A stretch of 39,217 bases of DNA, from positions 1-39,217 of the forward strand of contig SKOH01000126.1 of the NCBI GenBank assembly GCA_007120165.1. Reading direction: 5' to 3'. Source of the DNA: Clostridiales bacterium (GTDB taxonomy: Bacteria > Bacillota > Clostridia > Peptostreptococcales > T1SED10-28). The position numbers were made by a program, and so were the translations under genes. Below the pieces are notes generated by a model that did not search any database, was not told the DNA's origin, and saw only the letters and a list, made by a program, of their open reading frames with translations. Shown here piece by piece: positions 8,624 to 29,089 of the stretch (the stretch's first letter is position 1; each line of letters begins with the position of its first letter).

Positions 8624-8771
8624 TCATTGTCTGAATTTTCTCAATTTTACTATCGTATATTTTATACTATTTTACCACTGATAAGAGCCCCGCTACCGTT
8701 TCTAGTCTTCTTGCAGTTTCAACCGACTTCTCTTCGGGTATCTATTTTAAAAAAAGAAAGTGGGAGTTGGT

Positions 8772-9437
8772 ATGAATAAAGAAGAAATACTCGATGAACT
8801 TCGCTCCGCCCTATCCGGTAGAACCTTTGATGCTTTGCTCCCACCGATAATTTTTGCTGTAATGAATGCCTTTTTTGATTTAACCGTTGCTGCTATAACA
8901 TCGATTGTTATTGCCGTTATTCTAGGGCTTGTCCGCTTAATTAAAAAACAGAACTGGTTTTATGCTCTGGGTGGGTTTTTAGCGGTATCCTTTGCGGCGG
9001 GCTTTGCTTATTTTACCGGCAGTGCCGCTAATTATTTTTTCGCCAGCCTAATAAGCAGCGGCTTTGTTTTTTTATTGGCCCTCGGCAGCCTTCTACTCGG
9101 CAGACCCCTGGCAGCATGGCTGTCTCATCTGAGCCGGGGCTGGCCGCTGTCCTGGTTTTGGCGAAGGGATGTAAAACCCGCTTACCGGGAAGTTACCATG
9201 GTCTGGACGGTTTTACTGTTTGCACGCTTTTTTATCAGGCTGTTCTTTTTTCAACGGGGCAGCGCAGTGGAACTGGCCTGGATTAACACACTATCCGGAT
9301 GGCCGCTTATTCTTCCTGTGCTGATTCTCAGTTATGTTTATGGGATTTGGCGCCTAAAGAATCTACAGGGACCCGGCGTAGAGGAATATCAAAAAGGCGA
9401 AAAGCCTCCTTGGAAAGGGCAAACCCGAGGGTTTTAA
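8772..9437 (+). CDS. DUF3159-like multi-spanning membrane protein
   Basis: This is a 221-residue hydrophobic protein with about six membrane segments, for example around IIFAVMNAFFDLTVAAI, ALGGFLAVSFAAGFAYF and LILPVLILSYVYGIW. The N-terminal pattern SGRTFDALLPPIIF and the later GR-rich loop resemble DUF3159 proteins, which are of unknown function. I chose the ATG at 8772, five bases after GGGAG; a GTG at 8760 is also in frame. Its stop lies inside a terminator. It is divergent from the SGNH hydrolase and convergent with the glutaredoxin gene. Nothing in the context indicates its role. Confidence 0.65.
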   Translation: MNKEEILDELRSALSGRTFDALLPPIIFAVMNAFFDLTVAAITSIVIAVILGLVRLIKKQNWFYALGGFLAVSFAAGFAYFTGSAANYFFASLISSGFVFLLALGSLLLGRPLAAWLSHLSRGWPLSWFWRRDVKPAYREVTMVWTVLLFARFFIRLFFFQRGSAVELAWINTLSGWPLILPVLILSYVYGIWRLKNLQGPGVEEYQKGEKPPWKGQTRGF

Positions 9438-9455
9438 CACCTTCGGGTTTTTGTT
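9422..9455 (+). terminator. Rho-independent terminator after the DUF3159-like gene
   Basis: AACCCGA (9422-9428) pairs with TCGGGTT (9443-9449), followed by TTTTGTT. The hairpin begins inside the last codons of the membrane protein gene and lies between convergent genes. Confidence 0.75.
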
Positions 9456-9470
9456 AAAGTAATACTTAAG

Positions 9471-9809
9471 TTAAGTATCTTTAATAAATTTATGACCGCA
9501 GCTCGGACAGGTTACTTTAATTTTTCCCTTTCCCTTCGGCACCCGCATCCGCTTTTTACAGGACTCGCAGGGAGTTACCGTGTAGTCGAGAAGACGTTGG
9601 ATTTTTCCAATATCCAGTCCGACCACAATCTCTTCGCCAATTTTAAATGCGGGAACACCCTGAAGACCCATTTGTTGAAACTCACGATTGGCCGCAGGAT
9701 CCTCATTGACATCCTTAATCTCATAATGATATCCGGATCCGGAAAGAAACTCTTTCCCTTTAGTGCAGTGAGGTCAGGTTTTGGTGCTGTACATAATAAT
9801 CTTTTTCAT
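9471..9809 (-). CDS. Selenocysteine-containing glutaredoxin with C-terminal zinc ribbon
   Basis: This is a 112-residue protein when the in-frame TGA at 9774-9776 is read as selenocysteine. The start is the ATG at 9809 behind AGGAGG. Residues 1-76 are a glutaredoxin/NrdH-like thioredoxin fold: MKKIIMYSTKT, then U12-P-H-C15 at the place of the CPxC active site, and the cis-proline V52-P53. Residues 77-112 add a zinc ribbon with paired CxxC motifs (Cys81/84 and Cys101/104). The codon before TGA is Thr, as in family members with a TCPHC-type site, and the frame is fully conserved on both sides. A bacterial SECIS-like hairpin follows the TGA. A conventional reading would truncate the gene to a 66-residue fragment starting at 9671. 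It likely acts as a cytoplasmic thiol/selenol oxidoreductase. It is monocistronic and convergent with the DUF3159-like gene. Confidence 0.88.
9741..9776 (-). promoter_or_regulatory. UGA selenocysteine codon and putative bacterial SECIS hairpin
   Basis: The TGA is at 9774-9776. Sixteen bases further on the minus strand, GGAAAG and CTTTCC (9752-9757 and 9741-9746) form a 6-bp stem with the loop AGTTT. The apical loop starts 22 bases after the UGA and has G at its second position, which fits the general bacterial SECIS pattern of a stem 16-37 bases after UGA with a G in the first two loop bases. Confidence 0.72.
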
Positions 9810-9903
9810 TGTCTTATCCTCCTATTCATATTATCGTAACCTTCTGAGATGGCAAACAAATGGTCTCTATGATAAAATAATGATCAGCGAGGTGAAGGTC
9901 TTC

Positions 9904-26039: not shown

Positions 26040-26996
26040 CTAACCTTTAACCGATCCCTTTGAAAGACCGGATACCAGCTGGCTTTGCAAACTTATAAAT
26101 AATAATACGATCGGTATCGCTGTCAATAATCCCCCGGCGGCAAAGGCCGGCTGATTCATAGTTCGAAAATCATTTACCAGGGTAAAGAGTCCTGCGGCTA
26201 AGGTATAGGACCTAGGACTGGTCAGAAGAACCCTGGGCATTAAGAAATCCATAAAGGGACCGATAAAAGACCAAAGACCGATAATCATCAGCATGGGTTT
26301 TGCCACGGGCATAATGATCAGCCGATAGATCTGCATATTGCTGCAGCCGTCAATTTTTGCAGCATCATCCAGTTCCGTGGAGATGGAGTCGATATACCCT
26401 TTTAGAATAAAAGTGTTCGCCGCAATTGCTCCGCCGGAGTAAATCAGAATCAGCATCATTTGACGGGTAAAATAAGGCAAGACCGATGAAAGTATGGAAT
26501 GCATTGTGAAAAATGCCGTAATCCCGGCAAACACAGGTATGGTCTGGATTAACAGTATGGCCATTAAGGAAGACTTTCGCCCTTTGAACCGGTACCGGGA
26601 ATAAGCATATCCGGTAAAGGATACAAACAAAAGGGTCAACAACGCGGTGGAAATGGAAATAAACAACGTATTCCTCACCCAGGCCAGATAAAGTGTCTCG
26701 GTAAAAAGATATTCAAAGTGCTGTAGAGAAAACTCAAAATTACGGTTAAGCACCAGATATCCGTCCTGCAATCCGTTAAAGGCGGAAACCACCATTTGAT
26801 ACAAGGGCCAAATAATAATGATCGACCAGGCCACTAATACCAGATGGGCAATGACCAAACCTATTTTCCCCTGGGGAGTTAAGGGCTGCCGATCGGATAA
26901 ATAAAGGGTGCTCTTATTTTTTCTTTTTAAAAAAGGAAAGGTTTTTCCTATCCGTTCCAGGAAAGTCTGCTTATGTCCGTTATTGTTATTTTCCAT
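26040..26996 (-). CDS. malG: Maltodextrin-type ABC transporter permease MalG
   Basis: This is a 318-residue inner-membrane protein with six transmembrane segments. The EAA loop that docks the ATPase is DDAAKIDGCSNMQIYRLIIMP, shown here in part as DDAAKIDGC and RLIIMPVAKP. A hydrophilic N-terminus of about 45 residues precedes the first helix. The start codon overlaps the malF stop by one base (TAATG), so the permeases are translationally coupled. With MalF it forms the channel for a maltose/maltodextrin-like substrate, inferred from the surrounding enzymes. Confidence 0.92.
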   Translation of the reverse strand: MENNNNGHKQTFLERIGKTFPFLKRKNKSTLYLSDRQPLTPQGKIGLVIAHLVLVAWSIIIIWPLYQMVVSAFNGLQDGYLVLNRNFEFSLQHFEYLFTETLYLAWVRNTLFISISTALLTLLFVSFTGYAYSRYRFKGRKSSLMAILLIQTIPVFAGITAFFTMHSILSSVLPYFTRQMMLILIYSGGAIAANTFILKGYIDSISTELDDAAKIDGCSNMQIYRLIIMPVAKPMLMIIGLWSFIGPFMDFLMPRVLLTSPRSYTLAAGLFTLVNDFRTMNQPAFAAGGLLTAIPIVLLFISLQSQLVSGLSKGSVKG

Positions 26997-29089
26997 TATA
27001 ATCGCTCCTCCTTAAATGCCTTAGAATTCCTGAATCCAAGGTAAGCAAAGAACATCACGCCCAGGGATACAAAAAGAATAATCGCAGCACTTATGGCTTG
27101 ATACTGATTGACCATGGTGAGTTTGTAAATATAGGATACCAAAATGTCTGTTCCCCCGGCTAAATTGCCATATCTGCTGGGATTAAAGGGGCCTCCCCCA
27201 TGGAACAGATAAATGATGGAGAAGTTGTTAAAATTAAAAGTATATTGGGTAATCAGCAGGGGTGCGGTCTGAAACAGTACAATGGGGATCGTGATTCTTC
27301 TAGTCTTTTGCCAGATGGTTGCACCATCTATTTCCGCCGCTTCATATAAATCCGACGGGATGGCCTGTAAAACCCCGGTGGTCAGTAAAAACACATAGGC
27401 ACTTCCCAGCCAACCCTGAAGTCCGATTAATGTGAGCCTTGTTAAATTTGTACTGTGTTTTACGATAATTCTCTCGCCAAAGATATTGCTGATAATATCC
27501 GTTAAGGCTCCATTGGGAGAAAACATGATACTGAAAAACAAAATGGTAATAAAGGCCGGCACTGCCCAGGGCAATAAATAAATTGTTCGAAAAATTTTCT
27601 TTCCCACAATCCTCTCATGATTGGTGATCAGGGCAAGCACAAAACCGATCAGGATTGCAAAGGTGGTGGCCACCAGAGTCCAAATTAAGGTCCAACCAAG
27701 AATCTGCCAAAATACGGATCCTGCCAAGCCCTGGCCCATAACCAGCAGCCGGTAGTTATCAATGCCGATCCAGGAAAACTTGGATTGATTTTGGGGATTC
27801 ATATTCGTAAAAGACAGCATCAATGTGGTAATTACCGGTACCACGACAATGAATATAATCACAAACAACGCGGGAAAGGATACCATGTAGGGAAAACCTT
27901 CGTGTTTAATATTTTCCAAGGTTTCAAACCAGTTCTTCGGACGAATTCCCACAATGGCTTTTTCTTCCACGGCTTTAATATCCCTTAAGGAAATCCAATA
28001 AAGGGCCCCTGCAATCAGAATTAAAAAGATCGCTAAAATTCCTTCAATCAAAAACATCATTGATGTATAAACCCGGGGGGCTCCTTCTGCTAATGTTATC
28101 AGCCCCGCAATACCGTCTCCTTGATAATTACCATAACCCAGGGCATAGGGTATCGCTGCAAAATAAATGAAAAAAGATGCCACTAGAAACAGTCCGGCTT
28201 TTACAAATTGTTTATTCAGCAATTGCCCCATTCCCGGTAAGAAAAACGTACTGTACGCAATTACCGGCTTGGTTTTTTCCACCTCTATGGGGATTTTTCT
28301 TCGCTTATCGGCGATATCCGCATTTAAGGTTTTTTTCAGCTGTTTCGGCCGTTCTTTCATTTCATGTCTCAGGGTACGAATCAGTTCTCTATTGGCCTTT
28401 TTCGGAGATTCCAGCCGTTTTAACGTTAAGGCTTTGTTATACCGAAATTTTAATTCTTTTTTTCCGATTTTCAGTGCCTTATCGGATATCAGTTTATCTT
28501 TCCGTTTTTTCTTAAGAGAGGCGATGCTGCTTTTCAGCTCCTGCTTTTCCTCCTGCTTATATTCGTTAAAACGCACTTTAGCTTGGGCTTCTTCTTCGGC
28601 ACTAAGCTTTTGACGTTGTTCTTTCGCATCTGCTAATTTCTTTTCCTTTTCTATATAGGTGAAGATCAGCTCAGGGTAATACTTTCGTTCAAGCTTAGCT
28701 TCTTCATGGTAGTAGGTGGCTTCGTAATTCAGGTTTAAATAGTTTTTAAAAAAGCCTTCCTTTTTTTCGGCTTCAAACTCTTTGACTTTATACCTTTTTA
28801 AACTGGGGGACAGCTCTTTATCCAGATTTTTTTCAAAGGACCGGCTCTCTTCCTTTAGTTTTTTCCAAAACAGATTTTTTTCCTCCTGATAAGCCTTATA
28901 AGCTTTATAGTAAGGATGATCTTTTTTATTTTTCTTAAGCGCCTGGACTTGCTTTTCCAACGCCTTTTTCTCTTCCTTCGAAGCCGTGTCCATTTCATGC
29001 TGCAGTACTGCAATATCTAATAAAAACTGATTTTTCCGTTCATAGGTATTTCCTATTTCATCTATTAAGTATCGATTATACTTTCTCAA
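26996..29089 (-). CDS. malF: MalF-type ABC permease with a long charged N-terminal extension
   Basis: This is a 697-residue protein, far longer than the usual 290-520 for this family. Residues 1 to about 270 are strongly charged (Lys/Glu-rich), without membrane segments, and look like long helices or coiled coil. Then comes a hydrophobic part with FFLPGMGQLLNKQFVKAGLFL and two helices before the permease core. The core has the EAA loop EAAEIDGATIWQKTRRITIPI (partial motif EAAEIDGA). The start codon is TTG at 29089 after GGTGGGAG. It overlaps malG by one base. The extension is presumably cytoplasmic and could contact the ATPase, glucan enzymes or the wall-facing machinery; none is shown. It deserves attention. 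Confidence 0.9.
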   Translation of the reverse strand: MRKYNRYLIDEIGNTYERKNQFLLDIAVLQHEMDTASKEEKKALEKQVQALKKNKKDHPYYKAYKAYQEEKNLFWKKLKEESRSFEKNLDKELSPSLKRYKVKEFEAEKKEGFFKNYLNLNYEATYYHEEAKLERKYYPELIFTYIEKEKKLADAKEQRQKLSAEEEAQAKVRFNEYKQEEKQELKSSIASLKKKRKDKLISDKALKIGKKELKFRYNKALTLKRLESPKKANRELIRTLRHEMKERPKQLKKTLNADIADKRRKIPIEVEKTKPVIAYSTFFLPGMGQLLNKQFVKAGLFLVASFFIYFAAIPYALGYGNYQGDGIAGLITLAEGAPRVYTSMMFLIEGILAIFLILIAGALYWISLRDIKAVEEKAIVGIRPKNWFETLENIKHEGFPYMVSFPALFVIIFIVVVPVITTLMLSFTNMNPQNQSKFSWIGIDNYRLLVMGQGLAGSVFWQILGWTLIWTLVATTFAILIGFVLALITNHERIVGKKIFRTIYLLPWAVPAFITILFFSIMFSPNGALTDIISNIFGERIIVKHSTNLTRLTLIGLQGWLGSAYVFLLTTGVLQAIPSDLYEAAEIDGATIWQKTRRITIPIVLFQTAPLLITQYTFNFNNFSIIYLFHGGGPFNPSRYGNLAGGTDILVSYIYKLTMVNQYQAISAAIILFVSLGVMFFAYLGFRNSKAFKEERL

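Follow-up and report, generated by a model that had tools for sequence, protein, structure and literature searches.

Probable selenocysteine decoding in a clostridial glutaredoxin gene

On the minus strand of a 39,217-nucleotide stretch of a Clostridiales bacterium (contig SKOH01000126.1, positions 1 to 39,217, assembly GCA_007120165.1; the whole stretch is referred to here as the window), a glutaredoxin-like frame is broken by a TGA where the first active-site cysteine is expected. This raises the question of whether the TGA terminates the frame, marks a dead or misread gene, or is decoded as selenocysteine (Sec). A first-pass annotation had proposed a hidden selenoprotein glutaredoxin. This reading is strongly supported by the selenium machinery of the genome, by the distribution of TGA and Cys codons among homologues and by the conservation of a downstream hairpin. 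On this evidence, the gene almost certainly encodes a Sec-containing glutaredoxin of the YruB/cGrx1 type that carries a zinc ribbon at its C-terminus, with the UGA at codon 12 decoded via SelB and the hairpin.

A glutaredoxin frame with a single in-frame TGA

The gene and its flanking signals are as follows:

9471 to 9809, minus strand: predicted selenoprotein glutaredoxin gene, 112 aa, TGA as Sec (U12), stop TAA (translation with TGA as U; PF00462; same frame and TGA in 14 genomes)
9774 to 9776, minus strand: TGA, putative Sec codon at the first active-site position (UPHC), aligned with Cys codons in other homologues
9818 to 9823, minus strand: ribosome-binding site AGGAGG, 8 nt before the ATG (sequence)
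9421 to 9450, minus strand: hairpin just 3' of the gene that may act as a terminator in both directions (predicted folding energy -16.4 kcal/mol, z -3.0)

The frame runs over 112 codons from the ATG at 9809-9807 to the TAA at 9473-9471, and its sole earlier stop is the TGA at 9776-9774. When that codon is translated as U, the 112-aa product starts MKKIIMYSTKTUPHCTKGKEF and matches the Pfam Glutaredoxin family (PF00462) with 42.7 bits against a gathering cut-off of 22.9; the same family is matched by all 20 homologues. Translation and Pfam thus confirm that the TGA falls at the first active-site Cys of an otherwise intact glutaredoxin frame, at the coordinates first given for it. The ribosome site claimed ahead of 9809 is also present: AGGAGG lies at 9823-9818 with a spacing of 8 nt, and most homologues likewise have an AGG-rich site upstream of the start. 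At the other end of the gene, a convergent plus-strand ORF (8760-9437) would share the possible two-way terminator hairpin, although a terminator scan called none.

As the first-pass annotation had anticipated for standard gene calling, all that a mechanical ORF finder lists for this gene is a 66-aa fragment (9471-9671). Since that fragment opens at an in-frame internal ATG, the TGA might be taken for a real stop, leaving an 11-residue peptide and a separately started 66-residue C-terminal protein. However, the start of such a protein would fall within the glutaredoxin fold, leaving it with no active site. Residues are conserved on both sides of the TGA, and other members of the family carry Cys in one unbroken frame. 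Termination at this codon is therefore very improbable.

Two domains, one of them a zinc ribbon

The readthrough protein divides into two parts:

9585 to 9809, minus strand: glutaredoxin domain, residues 1-75 (Pfam; AlphaFold model; best PDB match 7c10)
9474 to 9584, minus strand: C-terminal putative zinc ribbon, residues 76-112, with Cys81, Cys84, Cys101 and Cys104 (invariant Cys; subthreshold Zn_ribbon_4; beta structure in the model)

In the AlphaFold model (mean pLDDT 94), residue 12 sits immediately ahead of helix 1 (residues 13-25). The active site U12-P-H-C15 and the V52-P53 motif are conserved among the homologues, the resolving Cys15 being invariant. The C-terminal part, which the first-pass annotation had overlooked, is beta-rich in the model and contains two CxxC knuckles (C81, C84, C101 and C104), all four cysteines of which are invariant in 20 homologues. 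Its Zn_ribbon_4 score of 23.0 bits lies under the Pfam cut-off of 30.3; the four cysteines would bind zinc. The ribbon motif of the glutaredoxin, CPxCK..RVPKGKGKIKVTCPxCG, is also found at the ends of small membrane-like proteins from Spirochaetes, Peptoniphilus and Enterococcus (L056, L066, L078). Because these small proteins are otherwise unrelated, the ribbon constitutes a shared module.

The genome encodes the selenocysteine machinery

Sec insertion would require selA, selB, selC and selD, and a search for them had been proposed as a check. All four are present in the genome, a 2.41-Mb draft in 229 contigs with an estimated completeness of 98%. SelA, selB and selD score 606, 362 and 372 bits, respectively, all above their family cut-offs, and the tRNA-Sec gene (selC), with a TCA anticodon, scores 74.6 bits, also above its cut-off. 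The genes selA, selB and selC are adjacent in one cluster, and the glutaredoxin gene is on a different contig.

Other genes of this genome carry in-frame TGAs at expected Sec positions. These are selD itself (SAGUAGK; L015 1441-2375, cut by the contig end) and two GrdB-type genes (TSTUGTC; L112 1240-2547 and L113 3-1244), which indicates that this genome employs UGA for Sec at several established sites. The same observations bear on a genome-wide reassignment of TGA to another residue, for example Trp or Gly. No evidence in support of such a reassignment was found; the large genes of the window are unbroken under table 11, and at the known Sec sites of SelD and GrdB it is Cys that TGA replaces. 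We give this explanation next to no weight.

A SECIS-type hairpin accompanies the TGA

Downstream of the TGA, the transcript is predicted to form a hairpin:

9741 to 9757, minus strand: candidate hairpin of the bacterial SECIS type, starting 16 nt downstream of the TGA, with loop AGUUU at 9751-9747 and G at 9750 (fold; conservation in TGA homologues)

The element, GGAAAGAGUUUCUUUCC at 9757-9741, folds with -7.7 kcal/mol and begins exactly 16 nt past the TGA. It has a 6-bp stem and a 5-nt loop, AGUUU (which an A-U pair can close further), with G at loop position 2, in agreement with the SECIS-like stem originally described. The TGA-to-loop distance is 22 nt, and the hairpin lies within the limits of the published bacterial SECIS model. 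Taken alone, the hairpin of the window is modestly above chance (p = 0.03 against synonymous recoding), and 53-63 nt windows around it fold no better than shuffles. The signal is thus local and comparative, and it is conservation in relatives that makes the case for the hairpin beyond chance.

Across the same 21-nt segment, 19 TGA genes fold with a median energy of -6.6 kcal/mol and 13 Cys genes with one of -0.4 kcal/mol. The Mann-Whitney p value for this difference, 2e-6, overstates independence because the sequences are related and is not a true probability. The base of the stem varies on both sides among homologues, where C-G, G-C and U-A pairs are found. A later sample added five new TGA genes (L134, L135, L138, L139 and L140) with energies of -5.9 to -9.8 kcal/mol, and among its new Cys genes the hairpin is kept in L123 only (-4.4 kcal/mol); L120, L121 and L137 in that sample are repeats of genes already counted. 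Weak hairpins are also retained in some of the earlier Cys genes (L040, -3.6 kcal/mol; L037, -4.2 kcal/mol). The hairpin thus accompanies the TGA and is mostly absent from Cys genes. A search of this stretch against Rfam returned no SECIS family match. Bacterial SECIS elements are highly variable in sequence, and this null result is for that reason weak evidence.

Sec and Cys forms among relatives

The full-length ribbon form occurs in 17 of 60 related genomes, all 17 belonging to the same order. Fourteen of these, this genome included, have TGA at the active-site residue and three have Cys; among ribbon-type orthologues the TGA is shared down to 43% identity. Aligning homologues, the second check that had been proposed, therefore places either TGA (Sec) or Cys at exactly residue 12. 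The three Cys genomes have selB and tRNA-Sec, and a lost machinery therefore does not account for their Cys codons. When the wider class was sampled, all eight ribbon forms from outside the order proved to use TGT or TGC, and selB is found in only three of the eight genomes. One genome with the TGA form (G004) yielded neither selB nor tRNA-Sec, in an assembly that is 79% complete and comprises 310 contigs. A tree of the glutaredoxin domain implies at least seven Sec/Cys changes, at a resolution too low for their directions.

These comparisons weigh on whether the TGA could be a nonsense mutation or a miscalled TGC or TGT, the gene being dead or encoding an ordinary Cys glutaredoxin. The genome is indeed a 229-contig draft, and TGA is one base away from the Cys codons. 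Against this, the TGA is at the identical position in 14 independent genomes, and the hairpin goes with TGA rather than with Cys. Over the 96 codons after the TGA, dN within the genus is 0.05-0.07 with dS near saturation, indicating that the downstream part is under purifying selection as protein; over the 11 codons before it, the amino acids are unchanged within the genus, on too few codons for a firm dN/dS estimate. A pseudogene or sequencing error is thus exceedingly improbable.

The gene neighbourhood provided no functional clue, a divergent dinB-like gene being retained mainly in close relatives, and a search of viral contigs gave distant glutaredoxins only. Elsewhere in the window, a large glycogen/maltodextrin cluster was recognised by eye from translations (15609-37292, minus strand), comprising two glycogen phosphorylases, a synthase, GlgC/GlgD, a branching enzyme, a glucanotransferase and an ABC transporter. 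A MalF-like permease ORF of 697 aa (26996-29089) is extended at its N-terminus by a long, charged segment of roughly 280 residues.

A second, short predicted Sec-glutaredoxin in the same genome

The first-pass annotation also missed a second, short and predicted Sec-glutaredoxin of this genome (contig C164; L139 716-955). Its UPHC site again contains a TGA, and the gene has a hairpin as well. It has counterparts in two sister genomes: that of G003 (L140) has TGA and a hairpin, and in that of G001 (L141) the codon is TGT and the hairpin is gone. Within one genus, the short gene therefore provides a clean natural Sec/Cys pair. An 89-aa ORF that by eye resembles a CsoR/CstR-type repressor (L139 357-626) precedes it.

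Mechanistic model and comparison with known systems

The frame, the position of the TGA, the machinery, the conservation of the hairpin, the fold and the ribbon cysteines are all supported by the sequence, and a mechanism can be proposed from them by analogy. At UGA codon 12, SelB would deliver Sec-tRNA(Sec) to the ribosome under the guidance of the hairpin that begins 16 nt downstream. By analogy with cGrx1 (PMC7642778), the Sec12 selenolate would attack an oxidised thiol, selenol or disulfide of a partner protein, and Cys15 would resolve the intermediate as a selenenyl-sulfide, which a cellular thiol donor may then reduce. The zinc ribbon probably either docks the domain onto its partner or makes the domain more stable. 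Matches to GshF (TIGR01435) in the genome were below cut-off only, in a search that among the glutathione routes covered the GshF type. A Sec-MsrA partner, as in Clostridium oremlandii, was also considered; neither of the two MsrA genes here has an in-frame TGA, and this pairing is unsupported.

Two consequences follow for annotation and for the study of SECIS elements. A standard ORF search loses the catalytic residue and leaves the 66-aa fragment, so that the gene would be misread in databases. In addition, natural Sec/Cys pairs occur in the family, some of the genes retaining the hairpin and others having lost it; such pairs are useful for examining the origin and decay of SECIS elements.

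Glutaredoxin is a recognised selenoprotein family (PMC13188914), and Sec-glutaredoxins in Clostridia were listed as early as 2006 (PMC1794560), in agreement with the first-pass annotation. A literature search combining glutaredoxin, selenoprotein and zinc ribbon found the ribbon-fused form undescribed, which is weak evidence of novelty as subscription papers lay mostly outside that search. It is conceivable, at slightly less than even odds, that the ribbon-fused proteins form a distinct Sec-glutaredoxin subfamily with repeated Sec/Cys exchange in one order of Clostridia and with a dedicated partner unlike that of the short, cGrx1-type protein of the same cell.

Among NCBIfam models, the best match is GlrX_YruB (TIGR02196), which covers the whole domain (residues 3-75); the score of 62.9 bits is nevertheless below the curated cut-off of 88.55, and the protein described here has the zinc ribbon in addition. 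The Uxx-star family (NF041212) is likewise a glutaredoxin-like family that includes selenoproteins, but the score against it, 31.4 bits, falls short of its cut-off of 66, and Cys15 is invariant in the present proteins. The Cys-type ribbon glutaredoxins of the class (L031, L032, L034 and L122-L129) share the two-domain layout but have TGC or TGT and have mostly lost the hairpin. The closest solved structure is that of cGrx1 of Clostridium (Alkaliphilus) oremlandii, a native selenoprotein (PDB 7c10, 7c12 and 7c13; PMC7642778). It shares the glutaredoxin fold, with a TM-score of 0.90 over the target and 42% identity in the structural match, and the U(C)PHC active site with Sec at the first position, but comprises 84 residues in the PDB entry and has no zinc ribbon. 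The short glutaredoxin of this genome, 66% identical to the Cys-substituted cGrx1, is nearer to cGrx1 than the ribbon form is.
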